Part shown: piece after piece, positions 835-35,400 of the stretch
How positions within the stretch are numbered: position 1 is the stretch's first letter
Layout: every line of letters starts with the position of its first letter
Made by a program: the position numbers and the translations under genes
NCBI RefSeq assembly: GCF_032854445.1
Contig: NC_088300.1
Location: 10,166,001-10,230,000 of the forward strand
Direction of reading: 5' to 3'
Length of the DNA: 64,000 bases
Source: Liolophura sinensis
Taxonomy: Eukaryota > Mollusca > Polyplacophora > Chitonida > Chitonidae
The notes under the pieces: model-generated
What the model was told of the DNA's origin: nothing
What the model saw: the letters and a program-made list of their open reading frames with translations, nothing else
Database searches by the model: none

Positions 835-1894
835 CTATCCATGTCCCTGTTCATGGGGTCATCAGGCTTACCCCTGTCCTCATTGTCCCGATCCACAAAC
901 TCCTCACCCAGCTTCTGTGTGGGCTTTGGGACCTTCAGGTCCATCAAGGACACAGGACCCTGCTGCCGGGGGCCTCCTCCCCGCACCATGCCTCGCCCAG
1001 CTGGACCCCCAAATCTGCTGCCCATCCCCCGGTTGGAGTCGAAACAACCAGACTGACCCATGCTTCTACCTTGAGCCCCAGGGAAGCGTATTCCTCTACC
1101 AACGCCCCTACCAGAAAGATCTCCTCTCTGGTTGGGGATTCGGGGTCTAGGACCCCCCATGCTCATGGAGCCTTGCTGTCCTTGATTGGAGAAGTCATAG
1201 CCACCCTGCTGGGACACTGTCCCCATGTCCTCCTGGTTGTCCTCTGACGGCTCAATGTCCATGTCCCCAGATCCCTGACCCCGCATCCCAGGGCCTTGAA
1301 ACCGCTGCTGGCCCTGCCCCTGGTTAACTTGCCCCCAGGGCCTACCAAAACCCTGGCCCCTCTGACCAAACCCTCGCCCCCGCTGCCCAGGGCCTCCGAG
1401 CTGCTGTGACAGGTCATCCTGGTTGCCCTCCTCTCCCCCATAGCCTTGTGGTCCTCCTCTGCCCATGTTAGGCCCAGGCCCACCTCGGCCTCGCTGGAAG
1501 CCGCCCCTCATTCCGCGGCCTCTGTTTCCTTGGCCCATTCCACCATCCTTGTCCCAGCCCTGTCGCTGTTGGTTCCCCATAAAACCCCCTCCACCCTGAT
1601 CCATATCATTCTGACCTCCTTCAAAAGTCTGCCCCTGGAACGCCTGGCTTCTCCCCTGGCCAAAGCCTCCCTGAGGCCCACCTCTTCTCTGGCCTCGCAT
1701 TCCACCACCTTGTCCACGGCCACGTGCAAAATCAGGACTTCCACATGCTTGCTGATTGAGCTGGTTAAAGCCCTGTTGTTGTCCTCCTCTACCGCGCTGC
1801 TGGTTGTAGCCATATCCCTGCTGATGATTGTCTCCATAACCAAACCCTTGGCTGTAATTCCCTCCAGCATTATCTTGCGAGCCTGGCCCCAAAC
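835..1894 (-). CDS. YLPM1: YLPM1-like exon 5, Gly/Arg/Gln-rich
   Basis: 1060 nt with acceptor TTTTCAG and donor GTTAGT (G at 834). It encodes about 353 residues rich in RGG, GGF, QGG and GRG motifs, as in RNA-binding RGG proteins, then a more ordinary segment (GPVSLMDLKVPKPTQKLGEE). It is much more GC-rich than the surrounding introns. Splicing from exon 4 restores a single frame. It leaves in phase 2, so the next exon is left of the window or too short to recognise in 1-834. Confidence 0.8.
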
Positions 1895-4800
1895 CTGAAA
1901 ATGTTAAAAAAAAAACATGCACCTGTTGGCCTCAGGATCCAACTTTGCAATCGCCATGATATGGCTGAAATATTACTGATGTGGCATTCAGCCACATTCA
2001 TTCATTCCAACTCAACATTTCAAAATCACAACAGGTACAGTCCAGCTCAGACTAGAGGTCAATTATTTACCACTCATATCATGCTCTGAGATACTGAATA
2101 ACGCCTTACTGACATGAGACAAACACTTTACTGAGCTACTGAGGCGCATAGGATTATCGTCGAAGTTATGAATATACTATCCTAGCTAGTTTGCAAGCAA
2201 AGGTGCAGTCCCCGTGTATTCAGCTATGTTAGCATATTCTAGCTGTGAAAAGCGGCAAGTTTATCTTGCAATATGTAACCTACCTCAGCAAAACAAAATC
2301 AGTTCAAGTGGATTAAGCGACTTATTTAAGGGAGTAAATATGCGATCTAAGTCATCAACTGGTATCGATGATCAGCGTATTAATTTTGATATCCATTTAT
2401 GTTATGCCATAAAGAACCTTACAGCAGATATTTCATAGCAAAGTCGGCAAATCTTCACATGAACAAACGCGATTTTCTTGTGAATAAAGCATGTGCAATA
2501 CCGCATGCCTCCCACCTAGGACATCGCCCCAACACAGGCAGACAGCAGTCTTGTGTGGCCTTGCCTTTGCATGATCCTTCACACTCATGTCTTAATCCAA
2601 AAAATTCAAATAAAGTGTTAAACCAAAAATTCAAATAAAGTGTATTCAGGGTTCGCAGGCCTGACAAACTAAAAAATCCAAGGACTTTTCAAGTACTTTC
2701 AAGTACTTAAAATACAAATTCAAGTTCCTCAAACACCAGTCCCAATCTCCGCTTTCGCGTACTAACTGTGACACCAGGCACAGCTTGAATACTTTTTTAG
2801 GTCATTTCGTTTTCGTAAGCGTGGTACAGCCATGCCGTGGCATTCAACCGGTACGCAGCCTTGGTGCCATAACCTTCAGTCGGTGCAGACATCACTGATA
2901 ATCAGACAACCCATATTTGATTCTTATAAATTTTCCACTGTCCCTCAGAATAAAAAACGCAGCTTAAAATATTTTCGCACAACACATGTGTTTGTAAACA
3001 GCACCACTGTCAGTCATGAGTAGTCCAGGGCGGACTTGCCCATACTGGAGACATCTATTCTTCGGAGACACAATTGGCTGTGTGCCCGACTGACACTGCT
3101 GGCGTCGCGCAAAGCCAGTCCTTGAAATCTGGGAACTGCAGCCATTCATCACTGAAACAACAGTTGTCTGGCATCTTTAATGTTATCTTTCACACACCAA
3201 ATCACACTCAATGACAGCTTAAGTTGTTACCGCCAAACCAAAAAATGGCAATCTTAGCGCCCTCTGGCAGAGAAACCGAAGTCTATAGTGGCACAAAACT
3301 ATTACCGCGTACATACCACTGGCAGCCACTTTAGGTGCATGTCCATTGCCAGTTGATTCACAGATTCTTACCACCGAATAACTTTCTTCACATGACACAA
3401 ACAAAATCAAGTGCTTTCATGGACCTCCACATCAAAATGGCACTTTCCAGTTCTAGGGAGATGAAGAATGTAGAGTTAGTTTTAGCAGTGGTGATCCATT
3501 ATGAATCTCACGTGGACTCACACATAAATCACTACTTTAAAAGAAGATTGCCATAACAAAGAGCTAAATTTTCTGTCGTCAGCTTTCCACAGACATGACA
3601 GTTCTCAGGCACGTGTGTGTGATCAGTGACAGTGGGCAGATCACTGACTCTGCAGGCGACTGTCTGCCCTGGAACTCTCCGCAGGTGCTCCACAAGCTCT
3701 CTATAAGACCTCCAGGATCACACTTATCTATGCCTGCTTTTGACTTTTAGTCCGAGCTGTACTGTATAGAAAATAGATTTTAGTTTCAGACACTAATCAT
3801 GAAGTTATTAAAACTGTCAGAATTTTTTAAATAGAAGTAATCAGATTCTGAATACATCTTGAGCACCACTGCCAACAGTTTTTGTTGACACAAGACAAAC
3901 ATCATTTTTAAAAGTACTTTAAATACCTTTTTGTCTTTGGCTTTCAAAGCAGCCATTAAATACAACTCAGCAGGTCTGTTTAGCTACCTATTTCACTTGT
4001 CCTACCCTGGGTACTGGATGGGTCTGGGCCGGCAGATGAGGGAGCAGCACTGGCTGCAGATTGCAGGACCTTTTCTTTCCTTGTCTTGATGTCAGCTTTC
4101 CTCTGCTCCATCTGTACTTCATACTGCTTCCACTGTGACTCATACTGCTGAAACAGTTCCTTGTTAGGGTGAGCTGAAAACAACAAAAACAACACACATG
4201 ATATTTCTTCACAAAGCTATACGACAAGGGTTTAACTTCGTACTTATATGATGGCAATTGCTTTACAATTGTTCCTAAAGTAACCTACATGCTCTTCATT
4301 CAGCTACCTGAAACTATCTCCTGGCTTGAAACCACAGCCAACTCAACCACAGTAGGATTCAAACCTGCACCCTCACACTGACCAAAGGCAGAACACAAAT
4401 CATGATTGTGTCACCATGCAATGTCCACAAAACTCAAGTCATGCTCTGTGCAACCAGACCTGCTATTACAGACTGTGAAGGACAAAGACTAACATGTTTT
4501 AAGTTTAAGTATAACTATAAGAAAACATTTCTTATAAAATATTTCACCAACAACTGAATGTTTCATGTGACAATGTTTTTTTTCTGTGTCGATGAACATT
4601 ACAACCAATGAAATTACACTGTAATGAAACTCTCAAAAGTATTTTAACAGACAAAAGTTGTCAGGGTTAAAATGTAGAAAAAAAGTTAAAAAGCCTCGTA
4701 GTTCCCCATGGAAATCTTCAAAACTGAAGAATTTTCTCCCAAATGACAGTGACAGCCCTGCATGATGGCATACCTTTGTTTTGTTCTTTCCAATCATCGT

Positions 4801-18955: not shown

Positions 18956-21900
18956 CTGCAAAACAACAAAAAGTACAAGAATTTTCCACATCACAACAGT
19001 AACATTTACATACCTGCAACGATTTGCTGATAAGTTAAAAACATACAACGGAGTAATATTAAGGCAGCCTTTGCATTTATTATGCAGAAATACTAATTAT
19101 CAGCTATTTCATCAAAGTTACACGCTGGCATACATTTAATCTATCCCTAGGCAAACTACATCCACATTCACTTGATACACATTTTTCACTCTTACGATTC
19201 AATAGCACACTCCATTGGCCAATGTCACTTTCACTCGTTAGGCAACACTACTTTATCGTGTGCTCTGCAGGCAAGCAGGCACTATAAAATTCAAAATCAA
19301 CCTTAATTTCTCTGTTGTTAATATATTTTTTCAAGGCATTTGATCACATTCCGGATTTCCCATAAATAAATGAATTTTCAATGTTATTTTTACTTCTATA
19401 CCCTCCTCCAACATTGAAAAAAGTTCATTCTGCCCTGTTAAACAAAAAAATTAATTTGTGTGGCTTTAACCAATTAAACATGGTGAAAGTTTGAGCAGGT
19501 GATGCAAGGTTGAAGTGAGCAGACTCCAGGTTGATGAAGCTTGATACAAGGTTCAAATGGGTTGCTTCAATGTTGAGGCCTTCAACTTTGCAAACAACAT
19601 TGTGCATAATCACAAATACTGGTACAGCTGTAAATAGTTTTCGTCTTCACAGCTGTCAAGTGGTTAATGACATCCTCTTATGACTATAAGCCTATTTCTG
19701 AGGGCCCTACTGATGTTTGAGCAAAAATACATAATACTGTAGCAATGCTACACATAGCCCTATTGCCCATGTACAGTGTTTTTCAATTAGCTATAAAATC
19801 AGAAAGCTCACATGCAAAATGCTATAGATGTATTTCAGGCAAGACAACCGACTGCTTTTGACCTTGAGAAGATTGACCTTAGGAAGACTGACCTTGTCCA
19901 GTGATTCCTTGTTGTGGGCAGCTGATAGGCAAAACCGAACTCTGGACTGTGTGATGGGAGTTGCAGGAAAGCCAACAACAACAACACCAAGGCCACGCTC
20001 AAGTACATGCCTGCTAAATCCCCTGTAAATAATCCATGAAATCTCCTGTGACTGGTTTGACAATCATCCTAACCAAAAGATGGCATTTGCTAACTTGTAA
20101 TCGAAGGTGACATGCAAAAGTTACCACTTCAGGCTAGTACATGCAAATCTAAAATAGCTTTTGGTGTTATTTCTATTCAATACACGAATGCAGATTAAAT
20201 TCATTCACTTTCCCGCCAAATGTTAACCATTTATTCATTTAAGCAGCCAGACCTTACTTATGTACATCCGGAAAGGTACTAAGATAAAAGTGTGGATGCC
20301 TGCAGTGCCATCTTGTCCTTTAAGAACACAATTCATATTGATCAAGAGTGATAAACAGCCAGGGAATGGGTTTTAAGACCAGCGACTACAAAGGCTAATT
20401 TCAGAGCTTATATCATTAACTGTTTGATATTTCCACCAAAATACTCTATAAAAGTTTGTAAATAAAAAAAAGTTTGGGATAAATAAACAAATTGATTTGG
20501 GATATAAATCCTTCATAACTATAAGACTGGTTCCTACATCCATTGGCTATTACAAAAACTTGTGTTGAATTGTCTGTCTCTGACAATGAAATGTTCAACA
20601 CAAATAAACCAATGACGAAAGAAACTTACGTGACTTTAGAAGGTAAATAGACTAGCATGGGAACAACAGGGGAATCCCTGTTACCATATATGATCAGTCC
20701 CATCTCCTTCAGCTTCCTTCTGAAGTAACGACTGTTCCATTTGAGCTGGGCTATCCTCTTCTCACCTTTGAGAACAAGAAATCACCACACCTGAGCTACA
20801 TGACGCGGACTGAAGCAAGCACCAAATCTGGTCTAAGTTAGACTACGTTACAACACTTTTCTTCTCACCTGAGAGAAACCATAAAAATCATCATACAGCT
20901 GAGGTATACCTGTGTGATGGTGACTGAAGCAAGCTCCAACAATGTTGTGTCACACAGAATTATAACATTCCTGTTTGCCCAGAGATATCTGGATGCCACC
21001 ACACTGGAGTACGTGAAATTTTATGCTACACATGCACTGAAGACAATATCACTTACAAGACATTAAAAACGTGGTTTAGTGTCAAATGGAAACCAGTACA
21101 CCTCAACAAAAAGCTGATAAAGCTCAGGACATTCAGATCAGGCATGCCAGACCAGACATTGCCTCAGGATCGCCAGAGATGCCAACTTAGCAAGAACAGT
21201 TTAGGCTCAATTAGTTAATTTCAGAACTCTTTAACATTAGTCACAAGCATGCAATTTATCAAACAATTACTTGCCCACACAATTCATCAACCAATCATTT
21301 ATCTAGAATTCACTTACGAATGAAGTCAATTTACACTGTGTGCAGGTGTATATATACATCAATCATTTGCCTATTCACTTCAACAATCAAGCATTTGTCC
21401 ACACAATTCACCCATCACATCTTTCTCCATACCATTCATTCAATACCCAGTTGTCCACATAATTAATCCACATCTTATTTGTCCATCCATTTCATCCTCT
21501 ACTCATCTATCCACACAATTAATCCACTACTCATTTATCCACACACTTCCTCCTTAATTGTCTCTACAATTCGTCCACTACTCATTTGTTCACACCTGTC
21601 ATTCACTATTCATTTATCCACACACTTCCTCCTTAATTGTCTCTACAATTCGTCCACTACTCATTTGTTCACACCTGTCATTCACTATTCATCTGTCCAT
21701 ACAATTCCTCCTTAATTGTCTCTTCAATTCGTCCACTACTCATTTGTTCACACCTGTCATTCACTATTCATTCATCCACACACTTCCTCCTTAATTGTCT
21801 CTACAATTCGTCCACTACTCATTTGTTCACACCTGTCATTCACTATTCATTTGCCCATACAATTCCTCCTTAATTGTCATGGCTTCCTCTCCGGCCGTAA

Positions 21901-22030
21901 GTGGGAAGGTCTGCCAGCAACCTGCGGATGGTCGTGGGTTTCCCCCGGGCTCTGCCTGGTTTCCACCCACCATAATGCTGGCCGCCGTCGTATAAGTGAA
22001 ATATTCTTGAGTACGGCGTAAAACACCAAT

Positions 22031-22064
<34 letters not shown>

Positions 22065-25000
22065 TTAATTGTCTCTTCAATTCGTCCACTACTCATTTGT
22101 TCACACCTGTCATTCACTATTCATTCATCCACACACTTCCTCCTTAATTGCCTCTACAATTCGTCCACTACTCATTTATTCACACCTGTCATTCACTATT
22201 CATTTGTCCATACAATTTATCCATTACTCAACTGTCTCTACAATTCGTTTGTCCATACAATTCCTCCTTAATTGTCTCTACAATTCGTCCACTACTCATT
22301 TGTTCACACCTGTCATTCACTATTCATCTGTCCATACAATTCCTCCTTAATTGTCTCTTCAATTCGTCCACTACTCATTTGTTCACACCTGTCATTCATT
22401 ATTCATTCATCCACACACTTCCTCCTTAATTGTCTCTACAATTCGTCCACTACTCATTTGTTCACACCTGTCATTCACTATTCATTTGCCCATACAATTC
22501 CTCCTTAATTGTCTCTTCAATTCGTCCACTACTCATTTGTTCACACCTGTCATTCACTATTCATTCATCCACACACTTCCTCCTTAATTGTCTCTACAAT
22601 TCGTCCACTACTCATTTATTCACACCTGTCATTCACTATTCATTTGTCCATACAATTTATCCATTACTCAACTGTCTCTACAATTCGTTTGTCCATACAA
22701 TTCCTCCTTAATTGTCTCTACAATTCGTCCACTACTCATTTGTTCACACCTGTCATTCACTATTCATTTGTCCATACAATTCCTCCTTAATTGTCTCTTC
22801 AATTCGTCCACTACTCATTTGTCCACACCTGTCATTCACTATTCATTTATCCACACACTTCCTCCTTAATTGTCTCTACAATTCGTCCACTACTCATTTA
22901 TTCACACCTGTCATTCACTATTCATTTGTCCATACAATTTATCCATTACTCAACTGTCTCTACAATTCGTCCACCACTCATTTGTTCACACCTGTCATTC
23001 ACTATTCATTTGTCCATACAATTGATCAATCATCACTCAGGATGTTCCAGTCACATGACAGCAGGATGCCATTTTGTGCAAGGCCTCCGGTACAAGGTTT
23101 GTTCCCACAGCAAGCAGGCCACCTACCTTCCGTGGTTCCATCCTCGCCCATGATGATTTTAAGGACGCAGATGATTTGCTGAGCCACCGGAGCGGGCATC
23201 GTTGCCGCATAGATAGAGCTATGCGAGTATGCACGCAGGTAATTTATGATCCTCTGAAAAATAAAATTACAGGTTTTAATGTTACTAGATCAGACAGACA
23301 TTTATTATAGTAATCCCTAAAGCTTTTGTGAACATTCACACAACACCTTACACTGACTATCAGATCAAACTTGTACGAGGAATTATCATGAGGTAAAGAC
23401 AATGAAATCAACTTCATATTTCGTATGTCAAAAAGAAAAATTAAGCACTTTCTGACCAAACACAAATAGAACTCTTTTTAGCAGATCTGTATTCCGACAT
23501 CTCATATACTGCACTCACTCATTTCTCCAGAAAATTGCATGATTTCCACACCTTATGAATTACACTAAATTCATAATGACTTCCCTGAATACCTGGGTTG
23601 GTGAAGATATTGCCTTCAGTGCAAGCTCAGAATTCTTCCCATTTTGATTACTTTGTATAATGATGCATTATATAAGATCATCTTACCTTTGAACCCCCTA
23701 TATATCCCCCAGCTGCTCGAAAGTTTAATTTTTGGCCATCTCACTCGAACTGTCTATATATTTATTTATTTAATTTATTTGATTGACGTTTTACGCCATA
23801 CTCAAGAATATTTCACTTATACGACAGCGACCAGCATTATGGTGGGAGGAAACCGGGCAGAGCCAAGGGGAAACCCACGACCATCCGTAGGTTGCTGACA
23901 GACCTTCTCCTGTACGGCCAGAGAGGAAGCCAGCATGAGCTGGACTTGAACTCACAACGACCGCATTAGTGAGAGACTCCTGGGTTATTACGCCGCGCTA
24001 GCGCACTACCCAACTGAGGCCCCTGAACTGTTTATATATCCCCAGCTGCTCCAAAGCTTTTTGAGATCTCACCCTTGAGCCCCCTATACAGCCCCCAACT
24101 GCTCCAAAGCTTTTTGACCTCACTCTCAAGCCCTCTATACAGGTGCCCTTCATGTAATGATGCTAAAATCATTTTACCTTTGACCCCCCTATATATCCCC
24201 CAGCTGCTCCAAAGCTTTTCGTGTAGGTACCCATAAGAATGTCCACATCTCTTGGGTTTACCCCAAAGTAGTCGACCACACCCCTGCCATGTGGCCCTAG
24301 AGCTCCAATACTGTGGGCTTCGTCCAGGTATAGGTAGGCATTGTACTTCTTTTTCAGATCTATCACCTCTGGTAGACGTACTATAGAACCTTCCATGCTG
24401 TGGATAACAGGACACAAAATACAACTCTTGTATGAATTTGGTGTCGCAACATTCTGCGCATAATTATGAATTCTCCTGGTATGTGGCACTTTCCGTTTGG
24501 CGCATTTCGTTTACAGTATATTTACTGAAAGACCGAATAGTGAAGAGTTAGACAGCCGAGGGAAAACTGCGAATCTCCTCATAGGTTGTTTTTTTTTTCA
24601 AATTGCCATGAGGCTTGTTTGTCTGAGTGGTGGAAATTTGGTTGAAAAACATTATAAATCTGTTCAGCTGTCATGTAAATAAAAATGAAATATATGTATA
24701 TTGGAGTTACATCTGCTCAATCTATTACGACTTGCCATGAATCATTCCTTGTGCTTATTTTGAGCGACAGATTTGTTGTCACCAATCCAGTGATGTAACA
24801 ATATGTCGCCACATTCTTACATATTGTCAAGGATTAAGGTTTATTAAAAATTCACCATTCCATAAACAACGAAAGAATTCTTGATATACTCATGCAGGTC
24901 TAAACTTCACCTTTCTTGAAGATACCTGACTCGATTCACGGATAAAGCAATCCATTCAGTAATGCTAGGCATGGTAAATCACTTCATACATGATGATGAT

Positions 25001-28000
25001 CCAGCCTTTACTGAGACATGCAAGAATTTTTATAATTGTTATTGTTTTATTAAACCCGGTAACTCACTCAACACAAGTACCTGAAATTCTTGTATACATC
25101 TTGTATCATACTACTATCGTGAAGTCACGTTCAGATTTCTGCTTATTCCAGCCAATATAACTTTTGGGTCCGTATGAGTGCGTTATTTCAAGGGAGCAGT
25201 GTAATCATATAATGTACGTCTTTAACCTTTTAAACCTCTAAAGCATTTTTTTCAGTGTAATTCATGCACACAATTGTTATGCAAATAACACTAAGAATGA
25301 TTTGTTTATGTCACTAAAGATGCAAGATTCACAAAAGTATGCATTATTTCTCTACACCTTATAGTTTTCTCAGAATATTTGAAAATATTGCCTGAAGATG
25401 TAGTTGAAGTAGCTCTTTCATGTAGATCATGTAGCTCTTTTAATACAACTGAAAGTGCATTACCTGGCAGTATGCAACTTCCCTATAGCTAGCCACATGT
25501 TTGTTTTGTCACAACTGCGCAGCAAACGCTTGAGAAACGGTTGATGCATGGTGGGGGAAAAAATGTTCCAAATGCGTTTGTGTTGAAACAGACCAATAAA
25601 AATTACAACAACAGAGGGTTTTTAAAAGGACAACAATGTCGTTAATAGTAACTGTTTTAGAGTTGTTTGGAAATACAAAAGTAGGCAATGGGTTCTTAAC
25701 TGCATAGCAATAATGATTAGCGAAATTACAGTTTTTAAATGCAAAGTTTTGGTTTCAAGATGTGGCCAGTTCTTGTAGGAGCCATTTAAATTTCCACCCA
25801 AGAGGTTGGCATATTTCTCCACCAGGTGGTGCGAGCTTATACGGATGATGTAACATGTGTCATGTGCAATGGAGACACGCTACATGTATAGGGAAGTTGT
25901 ATACTTCTAGGTAATGAACTTCTCATACTACACACGTGTTAACTTTGTAAGTGATTCCATACCTAGAACAGATCCAAAGGCAAACACCCAAGCAGACAGC
26001 TGAAGCTGTTGTGACGTGAAAGCCAACGTAATTGGTATTACCATTGTATTTATATACCAAAGAAAATTGTATGTTTGTGTTAAAATATTTTCTACCCTAC
26101 TTATATAAATGAAAACAGCTTTAGGAGACCTTTGGCAGCATCTTCTTTTAGCAACATAATTCCCTGGTAAACAAGACAGACTTACCTGTAAACACCTTCC
26201 ACTACTATCAAGATTTTTTTCCAAGGTCGTTTGGTTTTTGGATGTCCTTTAACAATTGCTTCTTTTAGAATGGATTCCAGATCTTTCATATCTGAGAATA
26301 TAGAGTTTAATCTTTTAGAGAGATACAGATAGTGACCTTTCCAGGCTGAGTCTGCAGAAAATAATCACTTCAGTAGCTCAACAATATTTGTTCACATCGG
26401 TGGCTGCTGCGATAACCAAGGCTATCTTGAATTTTCCTGGATTTTGTATTTTAACCATTGTACACAACATGGTGCCAAACAGCCTATCAGAAAAATATTG
26501 GTTAGGGAGAGAACTTCAATAAGTAACTTGTTTGATGCATAGACAAAAACATTAATCCTATTTACATTTTTTTAGAATTTAAATAAGTGTAATTTTAGTG
26601 GTTTTAAAATTTCCACAATTATTATCTACTTGATTCCTCTCATGCTTAATTCATAATGTTTCAACATTTTCTTTAGAGTACGCAAGGAGTAAGAAGTGAT
26701 AATGCTGGGTACTGCTCAGCAAATTTGAAGGAAAAGTTGCATATTTCTGTTCGTAGTGAAACAATACATGAATTACTCCCCTTGAGTGATGTACACTTCA
26801 TTGAATGTCTGCTGTAAAAGTTGTGTGCATGTGCCCTACTTACAGCGTATATGTTTGATGTATGAAATCACTATGCTGTATCCACTAAAAATGCATGCAC
26901 ATGCATTCCATTTGATATCGTGCACACATGTAACCTACATATACATTGTTGTAGCCTTTGGTTATTTTTTTCCCCACTAAAATGATGATCAATTAAATGT
27001 AGATGTCTTACTCCTGCTACAGTTGTGGCACCATTTATGGAGAATTAGGCTAAATGGGAAGCGCCACCATCACAGGATAAAGATTTACTTATAATTTGAC
27101 AAGTATTTTATTATATTTGATGACCCAGTTTTTAGACTTGAGCTGGACCTTGCAGTGTCATGGCAACAGCAGGGATTCCCCAAGCTACAGATACAAGCTA
27201 CACCATTTTACTGTACCATACACCACCTGCCTTGATCCGTCCCGTCAGCACCCAGATGTGTTATTATCTGTCCATCCTGGGGTGCCAATAACCACAGATC
27301 AAAATTTCCCAGGAGAGATGCATTCTTAGTATGCATTCTACCAGACTTCTCATTTTGAGCACTACCCAGTTTAATTTTCACACAGATTTTTGGAAGAATT
27401 ATTATAGATTATTGGTTTCTTGATAAATATTGTCTTTGTTTCTGTCTCACAATACCAAACCACAATGATTCAGGGGTATCAAAGTAACTACTTGTACAAG
27501 TTAGGTTTAAATACTTTAGTGTTTGCCCCAGACAATCAGGCTCCAAATATCAAAGAGGCATGGTTCACACTGCCATTATGTTTGAATACCTTGGTACTTG
27601 CCCCAGGCCAAAGAAGCAAAGTTCAGTTGTATCAAATTTACCATTATGTTTGAATACCTTGGTACTTGCTCAAGAGACCAAAGAGACATGGTTCAGTTGT
27701 ATCAAACTTATCATTATGTTTGAACACCTTCTTATTTGTCCCAGACAATCTGGCCCCTAACACAAAAGAAACCTTGTTTAGTAATATCAAACTTACCATT
27801 GCGTCTGAATACTTTGATATTTGCCCCAGACAATCTGACTCCTAACACCAAGAAGCATGGTTCAGTTGTATCTAACTTACCATTATGTTTAAATACTTTG
27901 ATATTTGCCCCAGACAATCTGGCTCCTAACACCAAAGAAGCATGGTTTAATTCATCACTGATGATTAAACAACCCTGAAACAGAACAGTCAAATTTAAAT

Positions 28001-29385
28001 ATTTACTTTTCTCAAAGGTGAATGGAACACTAACTGCTATGTTCTGAGTGGTGAATTTACCAGAATAAAGCTACAACTGCTAGCTGCTGTCCAGGTGTCA
28101 AAGACAACTTCAACATGCCAAAGCAAGAACAATGTGAATTAATAAACTTTTCTCAGTTTAACATGGTGATATTTGTGATGAGGCACACGCATCTAATCCT
28201 AACATACTTAACACTCACTCCCATGGGGGTGGACAAACTGAGAAAACCTTGTGAACAATACAGGGAATGTTCACGGGAGTTTGTGGACAAACCGAGATCA
28301 CCAAACTGACTAATACATGAAGAAGAAACCTTGTGAACAATACAGGGAATGTTCACGGGAGTTTGTGGACAAACCGAGATCACCAAACTGACTAATACAT
28401 GAAGAAGAAACCTTGTGAACAATACAGGGAATGTTCACGGGAGTTTGTGGACAAACCAAGATCACCAAACTGACTAATACATGAAGAAGAAACCTTGTGA
28501 ACAATACAGGGAATGTTCACGGGAGTTTGTGGACAAACCGAGATCACCAAACTGACTAATACATGAAGAAGAAACCTTGTGAACAATACAGGGAATGTTC
28601 ACGGGAGTTTGTGGACAAACCGAGATCACCAAACTGACTAATACATGAAGAAGAAACCCTGTGAACAATACAGGGAATGTTCACGGGAGTTTGTGGACAA
28701 ACCGAGATCACCAAACTGACTAATACATCAAGAAGAAACCTTGTGAACAATACAGGGAATGTTCATGAAGTTTGTGGAAAAACTGTGATCAATCAACTGA
28801 CCCACATACCTTTTGGACAAGACAAGGAATGTTCATCGAGTTTGTAGCAAACCCCATGGGGTATGTCATGGCTGCTTCAGTACCCAAGTACCGGGCCATC
28901 AGGCAGTCCAACTCTTCATGGATGGCTAAATAGCCTGCAAACAGAAAACATGCACAGATTTTATTACATTTTATGTTGAAAGATTTATTTATTAAAAGAA
29001 CACAACCCTTCAAGTCTCCTGCTCACCAAAGAGAATTCTTGCTTATGCATGTTGTAAACTGAAAGCAGAATCCACAGGAATGTTCCGTTTTTATAAGACT
29101 GGTTTCCAACCAACCCCCTAGTTGTATGTATTAAAGGTTCAAGAAGAATATCCCTCTCCTCCATCAACCAATGGTTGCAGAGCTCTTGGCATGCTTGATC
29201 TGTTGATACCATGACACATCAACCAAACCATTCTGTAAGTGTTCATGACTCATTCCAGAGATACACAACGACAAACTAATAACTGGCGTATGACTTACTA
29301 AGGGGTATATGTATGTTCCTATATGTATGATTAGGGTTTTACACTGTACTTATCAGTTATACATATATGACGAGGAGGAATCATC

Positions 29386-29452
<67 letters not shown>

Positions 29453-32400
29453 TGTTTTTGTGTGTGTGTGTGTGTGTACATATACTCTGTATTCTTGGAG
29501 TCCATGTTACCAAAGTGCTGCAACTGCTGAAGTATCATGCCAAAGACACCAGACATGACACCCAACCCAGTCACATTATATTCACACCATGCAAACCAGT
29601 TCTGTTTCCTTCCTCAAACATCTAATTGCTGAGCACCAAATGAGGCAGCAACATTTACCATTTTAAAGCATGACACGACTCAGGTTTGATCCCAAGTTTC
29701 CCGACGAATCAGACACTTCTAACAACTAGGCCACCGAAGAAGTCATTTACCACAGGGCAGTCTGTAGAACAGTTATCCTGGCTTATTTCTGATGAAACTA
29801 AAAATTCACTTAAAAAAGTACATTGTTAACAGATAAATAAATGGTAGAGTTATAAAATATTCTTGCTACTAGAACTTAACTATTTCTATTACAATATCAT
29901 CATACCTTCCAAAGAAATCTCAAAACACTTGACATCCCTATAACTCTCCAAATCTGCCTAATAATGGTGTGTGTATGTAAGGTGCACATACCCAGCTCCT
30001 GTTTGCTGCCACCCACCCCGACCCCCAGTTCTCTGGTCACCTGCTCCACCTTGTTCATGCAGGGTGGATATTCGTCAGCAAACCCAAGGTAGTTGTACGA
30101 CCCAAAGTTCAAAGCCTCAATATCGCGGCCTGAAAAACTGGAAATGTGCAGAAATATTTGTTAGCTTAATTGTTAGCTTAATGTTAGCCTAATTCCATCT
30201 GGTTAGTAGATTGGTGTTACATCTTACCCCTATGTTAAGACCATATAAGATCAGTTTTATGAGTGCATCACAAAGGACACCAATGCCAGGTACACCTCCA
30301 CGCATTTGGCACTACTAGAAATGAAGTTGCAACCAAGTCCATTTTTCCATATATTTTACACATAATACAGTATACCCTATCTTATGCGAGTTTTAGAAGC
30401 ATAATATTCATTCAAACTTAAACACAAAATGTCATTTTCCCTATTCAGGCGGTCTAAGACATTGCTGCTGTACTCCATTCAACTCACGGAAGTTTTTTAG
30501 ATACTATCATGGACAATCATCAGAATGATAAAACTTCAGGGCGACCATACATAAATGGCACTGAGTTGCTAAAGGTATGAATGTAAGTAATTCAGAAATT
30601 GCTCGCTTTAGGGCTACCAATTTGAGCCACTGCAGTTACATAGAATTCTACAACATGAAAACTTAATTAACAAGGCGGCTGAATTCTGACTTACTTGAAG
30701 CTCCAGCCATAATCTGGCGACACCCTCTCTTTGACCTTGAAAACTGACCCTGCCCCACTGGCCAAAGGTCTGTTAAAACAGTCCCTCACTCTTCTGTAGG
30801 CATACCTTGTATAGAAACTCTCCCAACTATGTAGCAAGGGGACAAAACCCTGTAAATCCAAACATTGTGAACATTGTCAACATATTCATGTAGGGGACAA
30901 AACCCTGTAAACCCAAACACCATGAACACTGTCAACACATTCATGTAGGGGACAAAACTCTGTAAACCCGAACACCTGATGAACATTTGTCATTACAATC
31001 ATGTTGGGGACAAAACCCTGTAAAGCTGAGCATCATGAACACTGTCAACACATTCATGTAGAGGACAAAACCCTGTAAGCCTAAACATTGTGAACACTGT
31101 CAACACATTCATGTAGGGGAAAAACCCTGTAAACCTAAACATCGTGAACATTGTCAACACATTCATGTACGGGACAAAACCCCGTAAACCCAAACACCAT
31201 GAACATTGCCAACACATTCATGTATAGGACAAAACCCTGTAAACCAAAAAACCATGAGCACTGTCAACACATTCATGTAAGGGACAAAACCCTGTAAACT
31301 TCAAAATCGTGAACACTGTCAACACATTCATGTAGGGGACAAACCCTGTAAACCTAAACATCGTGAACATTTTCAACACATTCATGTACGGGACAAAACC
31401 CCGTAAACCCAAACACCATGAACATTGCCAACACATTCATGTAGGGGACAAACCCTGTAAACCTAAACATCGTGAACATTTTCAACACATTCATGTTGGG
31501 GACAAAACCCTATAAACCTAAACCTCGTGAACATTGTCAATACATTCACCTGGGGGACAAAACCCTGTAAACCTAAACCTCATGAACATTGTCAACACAT
31601 TCACCTAGGGGACAAAACCCTGTAAACCAGAGCATCGTGAACACTGTCAACACATTCACCTAAGGGACAAAACCCTGCAAACCCAAACGTCCAAAAGACT
31701 CTATTCTTTCGTGCATATTTAATAGATGGATTCTTCCGGAAAGTCAAGCAGAGGTATGCACATGTACTTGATACTAGTCCATCCCAGAGAATCTATGTTC
31801 ACATTGTGTTTAAAACTTGCCTGTTTTAGAATCTCAAGTATTGCCCATGCACACTGTTCCTTTTATCAGAAAGACATGAAGAATTATAGTGAAACAAACC
31901 TGAGTTGGTTTGTTGCAAATGAGTTTAATATTGCAGGATGATCAGTCAGGACGATCCAGACAGAGTGACAGTCAGCTTCCATGGTTCAATATATAAACTG
32001 ATCCGTAAAATGATGCCTACTGACACAGCCCATTAATGGTAACTTTCAAGTTAACGACCACTTATGTGCATGTGTATGGGATCAGATTGTTCAAGGGTAT
32101 ATGCCATTCCATAAATGGCCCCATTAACCACCACACAGCTAACCATGCTGTGATAGCTGAAGCAGGGGTAGACTGATATCACAAAAACAGCCAGATTTAT
32201 CTGTGTACAGTAGCACTGAGTGTCTACATGTATGTGTGAGACCATGCAGTAAGCCCTGGCACCACACGTACAATGACCAAGAACCTGCAAGCCATGTAGT
32301 TATCTCTTTAAGAACAAATATATTTCTTAATCTTCATGTTCCATACATTTAGCAACATAGTCTTAGATTGGGTTCCCCTGGGTTCTGGCTGGTTTTCTCC

Positions 32401-35400
32401 CACCATAATGCTTGCCGTCATCGTACAAGTGAAATATTCTACGGCGTAAAACACGAATCAAATAAATAAATAACCTTAGATTCGCAAAAATTTTGGTACA
32501 TTTCTATTAAACACTGGCAATTTTATACTGTAACATGAGTTATTTCCAGTTCTACAACATGTACACAATTCTGCAGGGTTGTCTTACATGCTTTGACAAC
32601 AGGCTAACGATTAAATCATGCAAAGAACAGGAAATGGCTCCCATGAAGGCCATTGTGACTTTTTGTTCATCATGATGAATGTATAGGGATTTGTGAAAGC
32701 AACCTTTTATCTGTATACAAGCTCACATGGCAAAGACCATAGAGGCCTGCTGATTGATAAGAGTACGCATTAGGTTAGAAGAGGCTTGCAGACTCAATAT
32801 TGCAGCCGAGAGTTTATGCAGCCATGGCAACTGGTCCCATAAAAAAGATTTATTACCCCTCTCTGGAATAAGTATACAAATAAGTAAAGATATTTTCATA
32901 TTAATCTCAAACATATAAAAGCAGCTGAAAATAATACAATAATTTCACCTGTATGTTTGTCAGAATTCACATGTGTTTAGACAAGCCAAATTCCTCAGTT
33001 TCTACCTCCAACATATTAAATAATTAACCTTACAATCATTAATAGAACTTTGTTTTCAACCTTGAAAGGATTTTTCAAAAAAAAAAAAAAAGCATGACCA
33101 AACTTCACCAAAGGATACTTGTGATTCATTCTTGATTGAATTTGACTCCAAACAATATAAATAACATACGCCACAAATTCAAACCATGCACGCACACAAA
33201 AAAAGAAAGAAAAAGAAGAACCGCATTGAAACTTACCGCAATTTTGCTATACCCTTAACACTAAAAAGACCATGTGAAAACAGCATTCTAATCACAAACT
33301 CACCTCAAGTTTGGGCTCTTGATAAGCGATCTTTTTGTCGAGTCCATAATACTGTAGAAGATCTCGAATTGAGCCCACAACAACTAGGAAGGCATAGCTC
33401 ATGTAAGTCAGGATGGCTATCAGGAGAGGTGTCTCTTCAAACGACTCGTAAAATCTTGGAAATGATTTCTGAAAAAATAAAGGAACGTATATTTTCATTA
33501 CACAGAAGGCAATCTGTCAACATATCCATGCACCTAAATGGTCTTTCTGTGAGTTTAAGGTTAAGAAATGAGGAATGTGCAGCAGTATATATAGATATAT
33601 ATATATATATTTAACATATATATATATGACATGTATACATAAACAAGGACAAAACCAAGACTTTCCGGACAAAGTGATTTTAAGCCACTTTCTTGAATAC
33701 TGTTAAATCATTTCAAAACCCTGGTGTATATGTAAAATGGGAAAATTTGGATCCTGTCTTCTGCCACCCACCCCTCCCCCTTCACCTTCACACACACGTA
33801 GCCCCCACACACACAATCCAACATTCCCTCTGCTACTTCCACACTCCTCCACATTGCACTCCACACACTGTCACCACTTGCATTAAAACATCCCTACATG
33901 TATGTGTCTTAAGTAACTCTGATACCTCACTATCTCACATAACACTGTCACATAAAACTTGCATGCTTCACTCCATGTGAAAACTAAGATCCAAACTTTG
34001 AAACAATTTAAAGCTTTAAAGGAAAAAAAAGAGGTCAGGATTCTACAAAACTGGTATTTGTGTCTACTACAGATCAATAGAGGTGATTTCTCCATGCCAC
34101 AAACAGACAGGAAAACACAGGACGTCCAGACCTGAAGCCTGTCTAATCCCTACTCATTATGCACTCCGCAGCTTGCAGCTGATCTTTGCACCCACTATCC
34201 AGTGGCATATGCATTTACATGTCCTATCACACTCCTTACAAAGCTTTCAATTCTCCGCCAGCCATTATAAAGGCTTCACTCAAGTCCAACACTTGTCCAA
34301 GAAGAAGATCGGATGTTTTCTTCCCCAATAAGATCAATATTTGAAGATCAACAGCAGACTAGAACCTGGCAAGCTACACCTTGCAAGAGCAAACACACAC
34401 GTGTACAATAGAGTGGTGTTTACCAATGTCTCAATAAAATAAGCCATCTAATTTTGCCGAATAACCAATATCTCCTCAATATCTTAATTATGCTCCTCAA
34501 TGTTTTGTATATATATATATATATATATGCCAGTTGACAGGCACCATTATTGCAAACCTGAAAACTAATATCTGACTCACTGTTAAAATGTGAGGCGCAA
34601 AATAACCGCTCATAAACTAGCCTTTAAGATCAGAGGACACATTGGTGGAAGTTGCTCTTTTCCCCCAGACACTGTGTTGGACCCAACCTCTATATTATCA
34701 TTACCTGGCCCATCGTACCACTCCGATTCATGGATATCATCAGTTATTGTCATAGACCTTGTGTTGGACGCACCCTCTATAATATCATTACCTGGACCAT
34801 CGTACCACTCCGATTCATGGATATCATCAGTTATTGTCATAGACCTTGTGTTGGACGCACCCCCTATAATATCATTACCTGGCCCATCGTACCACTCCGA
34901 TTCATGGATATCATCAGTTATTGTCATAGACCTTGTGTTGGACGCACCCTCTATATTCTCATTACCTGGCCCATCATACCACTCTGATTCATCAGACATT
35001 CTTCCAGACAGCATGGGCTGTTGTAACTCTAATCCAGTGTCCTGTTTCACTGTGGTGTATTGCGCAGGTTTCTGCTAAAAATCGGGTCATTCACTGCCTG
35101 AATGCAATATGTACCCCAAAGCGAACATGCAGGTGTGTCACCAAGTCACAGTTTTAAAGGACAAGATCAACAAATTTTGACTGGGTTTCCGGTGTTTCTA
35201 GATGTCTTTTCACAAACAAAAGGCCTCCGCCCATGTAAATTGGCTATAATATAACTGAGTTATTCATTAACCCTAAAACTTGTACATACAAGTACGTCCA
35301 TAATAAAGTGTAACCCAGTCCAAATTCATTGGTCTTGTCCTTTAATTTTGTCTATAATATTCTCATGATCCATAGGGCAAGGTTCTAAACTATAAAATAA

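Follow-up and report, generated by a model that had tools for sequence, protein, structure and literature searches.

Junction-spanning minisatellites of the "mirage" type in SPTLC2 and other genes of a chiton genome

Why would the introns of a gene carry minisatellites whose repeat unit runs across the border between exon and intron? The question arises in the chiton Liolophura sinensis (genome 609 Mb), in the 64,000-nucleotide stretch that we analyzed (C6:10166001-10230000, the window), where tandem arrays with a period of at least 12 and a score of at least 80 make up 16.5% of the sequence. The minus-strand gene of this window is SPTLC2: joined together, its exons resemble the human protein SPTLC2 (6m4n_B; phmmer E 2.5e-200), with the similarity spanning query residues 6-486. 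All borders of exons 2-12 are GT-AG, and these exons form a single continuous reading frame once joined. Comparing the upstream regions of the paralogues did not reveal exon 1. Tandem copies that span the border are present at 6 of the 21 internal edges of the gene. They are strong at the exon 3 acceptor and at the donors of exons 5, 6 and 8, and slight but real at the exon 10 acceptor and the exon 11 donor.

All of these features lie on the minus strand. The acceptor of exon 3 (30695-30849) is the last copy of an array of 55-bp units at 30837-31688, each of which holds the acceptor and about 13 nt of exon 3. Besides the real one there are 15 such copies, each about 55 bp long, and 13 of the 15 keep the AG. 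All six exons with affected edges were placed by protein match and splice borders. The end of exon 5 (28810-28934) recurs in 82-bp units at 28244-28791 that carry about 44 nt of the exon together with the donor. The unit is found in seven matching stretches, six of which scored as crossing the junction. Within this array the copies match at 97%, as against 66/93 in the best stretch compared with the real junction, and the array donor has degraded to gtttct. The exon 6 array (27451-27947; units of 70-85 bp with up to about 67 nt of exon end plus the donor) overlaps exon 6 itself (27881-27974), and five copies cross the junction. Exon 8 (24178-24397) is followed by irregular copies of about 53 bp at 24033-24177, with about 43 nt of exon end and the donor: two cross the junction, one is truncated, and one more, seen by eye, is degenerate. 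By eye, these copies are broken off by a stretch that looks like a dispersed element. A distal copy of the exon 8 junction at 23651-23726 is identical at 62 of 76 positions, and its donor, gtaaga, is closer to the consensus than the real gtaaaa.

The two slight cases are short or few in copies. At the exon 10 acceptor (exon at 20630-20765) there are two copies only, the original at 20757-20825 and a diverged second one at 20860-20939; their alignment scores 60, compared with 19.8 +- 3.2 over 1000 shuffles, none of which reached 60. The exon 11 donor (exon at 19893-20022) adjoins a 15-bp repeat of 2.6 copies at 19858-19896 that includes only about 4 exonic bases, and 0 of 300 shuffles matched its lag-15 similarity. 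In a separate probe test, a 30-nt exon-only probe was taken from each edge and matched against all introns, a design that misses the repeats at exons 10 and 11. Five of 20 pairs of an edge with its own intron attained the 95th percentile of the 200 other pairs, and the exon 8, 6 and 5 donors surpassed the maximum of all 200. The other two high pairs were the exon 3 acceptor and the exon 7 acceptor, the latter at chance level (z 1.8). The earlier note on this DNA had described repeat units across the border at these six edges, which the alignments and shuffle tests confirm, and had read them as copies of the gene's own junctions, a reading that the probe test, the junction alignments and the shuffles all support.

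Which came first, the exon edge or the repeat? The exonic parts of the repeat units encode residues common to human SPTLC2 and the paralogues. The exon edges find counterparts in human SPTLC2 and in three paralogues whose introns sit at the same places, so that the exons are older than the repeats; the conserved exonic residues and unchanged intron positions together indicate that the exon edges were the source from which the arrays were copied. We searched the whole genome with the units of exons 3, 5 and 6, that is, three of the six, by a method that skips very common words. Within those limits, the three have no match in the 609 Mb outside their own arrays and junction. Thus similar copies in many genes, as expected of introner-like elements, are absent for the three units searched, and a new intron position, as expected of intron gain, is absent because the positions are common to four paralogues.

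Three further SPTLC2 paralogues, termed B, C and D, are encoded in the genome (C6:10.261-10.270, 10.297-10.310 and 11.513-11.527 Mb), and the intron positions of all four copies are identical. None of 62 edges in the three paralogues has exon-derived repeats with z above 4, which rules out the structure as a trait of all SPTLC2 copies. Paralogue D is rich in arrays, with arrays in 6 of its 9 introns. Few of their adjacent pairs lay at the 95th percentile of the other pairs (0/20 in B, 2/18 in C and 1/18 in D), which is about the chance rate. In the acceptor test, exon 11 of C (z 4.0) and exon 9 of B (z 3.4) stayed well under exon 3 (37.9) and exon 10 (13.9) of the window gene. Exons 3 and 4 of paralogue C (C6:10.297-10.311 Mb) match piecemeal and not in one frame, suggesting either frameshifts or errors in the sequence.

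The window holds other repeats. Intron 9 of SPTLC2 contains an array with a 79-bp unit (21358-23023, minus strand) for which no link to an exon edge was demonstrated. The earlier note had seen no such link in the other arrays of the window; our check of that statement covered the donor-site scores of their consensus units. By eye, an insertion resembling a dispersed element lies in this array near 21880-22060, and similar stretches are seen at 23784-24030 and near 32360-32460; two of the three sit within or adjoin SPTLC2 minisatellite arrays. Also on the SPTLC2 strand, an 87-bp repeat (29 codons) at 34673-34992 keeps an open frame across 3.7 copies, each with a donor-like CAG|gtaatg. It has no direct phase fit with exon 2 and could be an exon that is not yet placed or else a coding-like repeat unrelated to the gene.

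Is the structure peculiar to this gene? The earlier note had described it as recurring within one gene, but the same structure is found in myosin and kinase genes. Border-spanning repeats occur at eight junctions in five of eight myosin pieces (12 fetched stretches merged, with 41 exon cores) and at four junctions in four of 14 kinase loci (the first 14 listed rows with a match of at most 300 bp and an open frame of at most 150 aa). The myosin donor cases are M1, M4 (two), M5 (two) and M6 (two). The acceptor case, M2, has 50 copies that are mostly 31-32 bp apart, with AG kept in 47. No junction-spanning repeats were seen in M3, M7 and M8. Among the kinase loci, L029 and L032 are donor cases and L022 and L023 acceptor cases; no case was seen in the remaining ten, where one exon per locus was examined. 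Exons were located by Pfam matches, except those at M4a, M5a and L032, which we recognized by motifs in their translations. The myosin tally was not blind: M1, M2, M4a and M5a came to attention through arrays with a splice-like consensus. With exon-only probes, 7 of 81 myosin edges had z above 4: four border-spanning arrays, two tandem alternative exons of M1, and one match in M7 that is 15 nt long and was put down to chance.

Several observations accompany this survey. The run of 50 acceptor copies, 47 of them with AG, precedes its myosin exon at L009 (local 1282-3105, C2). Near local 5594-6786 of L007 (C1), one myosin exon exists in three tandem versions, which are likely mutually exclusive alternatives. 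The kinase core matches of L027 and L030 contain a stop and hence run beyond an exon edge. Arrays occupy about 15,619 of 140,000 bases in the kinase loci, a figure in which overlapping rows are possibly double-counted. PF00122, with 10 genome matches, was left out of the gene sample. Elsewhere in the genome, eight consecutive matches to the haemocyanin beta-sandwich family, which is molluscan, lie at G000:C8:37880506-37891931. Innexin has 13 genome matches, eight of which cover nearly the whole model, and lancelets are reported to have one innexin (PMC8769644). On both counts a lancelet origin of this genome is rejected.

The earlier note knew of no named phenomenon of this kind. One exists: repeats of this type in lancelet genes are called "mirages" (PMC3087553, PMC3902484). 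They were described in Adh3 and in the globins BflGb6 and BflGb9 (PMC3087553); PGBD5 was added later, in a paper that also cites troponin C (PMC3902484). Lancelet mirages have units of about 10-160 bp across the exon-intron boundary, at acceptors or donors. Many copies, but not all, keep AG or GT, and the array is homogenized while the copy at the boundary diverges (PMC3087553, PMC3902484). RT-PCR of lancelet Adh3 and globins suggests normal splicing (PMC3087553). The chiton arrays are alike in that the unit spans the boundary, donors and acceptors are both affected, splice signals persist in many though not all copies, and the authentic exon stays intact beside the array (exons 2-12 in one frame). 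They differ in occurring in a mollusc, at six junctions of one gene and in several unrelated genes of a small sample. Exclusion of the boundary copy from homogenization is seen at exon 5 (97% against 66/93), but not at M5b or L032, where the array copies are close to the real junction. The phenomenon is real, was previously named in another phylum, and is present in several genes of this genome.

Other systems share part of this structure. Human IFI6 (6-16) likewise has a minisatellite with donor sites adjoining an exon, and there two repeat units serve as alternative donors (PMC4526556). Genes in human segmental duplications have internal tandem repeats at exon-intron boundaries that may form new introns or alternative transcripts (PMC2812944), while intron positions here are unchanged. 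In the Rogers intron-gain model and the potato RdRp case, too, a tandem duplication carries splice sites (PMC4974935), but in the chiton gene no new intron arose and the positions are common to four paralogues. A minisatellite in an intron of an abalone TSSK1-like gene varies in length between individuals (PMC6905558), which shows that such arrays can differ between individuals in a mollusc; the passages that describe it do not mention junction spanning. Among the matches listed in open-licence PMC text, we found no report of junction-spanning repeats in a mollusc.

How might such arrays arise? We think it probable that they are mirage minisatellites born of frequent local tandem duplication, in which seeds that straddle a junction are tolerated and the site next to the exon stays in use. 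Short stretches of DNA would often duplicate head to tail and the arrays would then grow; by chance, some seed duplications would straddle a splice junction. The copy beside the intact exon would go on serving as the splice site, and we infer that this exon-proximal site is the one used. Other copies would lie within the intron and be removed with it, so that arrays could be tolerated and drift, with copy number presumably shifting by slippage or unequal exchange. The placement of the unit fits this reading. A duplicated stretch placed at random should have a uniform exonic share, and the observed share (0.24-0.85, mean 0.50) is in keeping with this (KS p 0.29, n=16; all of the 18 cases except exons 10 and 11, with exonic lengths partly counted by eye). 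One observation speaks against the reading: the best copy scores no lower than the real donor in 11 of the 12 donor cases, and site strength thus fails to explain use of the first.

The copies might instead be useful as spare or decoy splice sites that tune intron splicing. Many copies, though not all, retain splice signals: AG or GT is kept in 12/12 at M4a and 6/6 at L023, as well as in nearly all copies at M2, and human IFI6 does use two downstream repeat units as donors (PMC4526556). Against a splicing role, the donors of the exon 5 array score at most 1.4 compared with 9.5 for the real donor, and only two of four exon 6 copies keep GT. Moreover, if the frame is extended beyond the donor, a stop follows after 18 nt at exon 5, after 6 nt at exon 8 and after 146 nt, beyond the first copy, at exon 6. 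The unit length is a multiple of three in only 2 of 13 donor cases, and thus there is no sign of frame-keeping isoforms. We consider this explanation improbable. Far less credible is an origin from dispersed satellites or introner-like elements that bring their own splice sites. Stretches resembling dispersed elements lie, by eye, inside two arrays, and no other support was found; this origin is contradicted for the three units of six that were searched and have no other genomic match, and the exonic parts encode conserved SPTLC2 residues. The earlier note had named satellites dispersed elsewhere in the genome, or an exon-unit similarity no better than chance, as results that would speak against its reading. 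For exons 3, 5 and 6 no such satellites were found, and similarity exceeded chance in the probe and shuffle tests. Chance resemblance of exon edges to intron sequence, a suspicion that exon 11 alone is short enough to raise, is ruled out by these tests and contradicted by the paralogue controls, and we give it the least credence of all.

Could a process tied to splice junctions, such as transcription-coupled repair, R-loops or slippage at the junction, start the duplications, above all at donors? Six junctions within one gene are affected, and across all cases there are 13 donors and five acceptors (exon 3, exon 10, M2, L022 and L023; binomial p 0.096), both 5' and 3' boundaries thus being involved. 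In an annotation-free test, we gave the consensus unit of each array a donor-site score on either strand. Scores of at least 7 were found for 14 sense and one antisense of 60 arrays in SPTLC2 and myosin (Wilcoxon p 0.0025); the kinase set gave six sense and two antisense of 40 arrays (Wilcoxon p 0.096). Together these make 20 to 3 of 100 array rows, although rows that belong to the same array family are not independent. The threshold of 7 was picked after seeing the SPTLC2 and myosin data and fixed before the kinase set; lowering it to 6 gives 17 to 6 and 10 to 4. Acceptor consensus showed no strand asymmetry at scores of at least 4 (11 to 10 and 6 to 8). From the actual lengths of units and introns, a crude neutral model predicts that 1.9 of 19 arrays in the four SPTLC2 genes should cross a junction, where four were counted (P 0.086). 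For the window gene alone it expects 1.04 of eight, again with four counted (P 0.0024), a post hoc value to be read in light of the gene having been chosen for being striking. In this model the four crossing introns and the exon 8 unit were entered by hand, exons 10 and 11 are not among the four, and the intron 9 array was given a 440-bp period, a choice that increases the expected number.

Other results do not favor a junction-tied process. The exonic share of the unit, being compatible with uniform, shows no fixed offset, and the paralogues have the same junctions but no affected edge, even though D is rich in intronic arrays. In a circular-shift test, the observed arrays cross 8 of 194 exon edges, against a mean of 30.5 on random shift, and 500 of 500 shifts reached 8. 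This result does not favor edge targeting; since arrays may fall on exons under the shift null, it chiefly reflects the scarcity of arrays within exons. An excess at donors beyond random duplication is suggestive but unproven, and we regard a junction-tied process as unlikely, though somewhat less so than the spare-site explanation. On a par with that explanation, and equally speculative, is the idea that arrays start or persist more readily at 5' splice sites than random duplication would allow, filling introns with arrays of U1-binding sites, perhaps favored since intron-bound U1 suppresses premature polyadenylation. Ordinary tandem duplication explains most of what we observe, leaving room for a donor excess.

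What do these arrays mean for the genomes that carry them? Mirages were described in a few lancelet genes, and here 9 of the 22 sampled pieces of myosin and kinase genes carry them. Their occurrence in a mollusc suggests that mirages arise wherever minisatellites are born often. The arrays are natural constructs, long runs of near-identical splice sites such as the 50 acceptor copies at M2, and they offer a good natural test bed for how the spliceosome chooses among many equal sites. They also bear on whether minisatellites feed intron gain.
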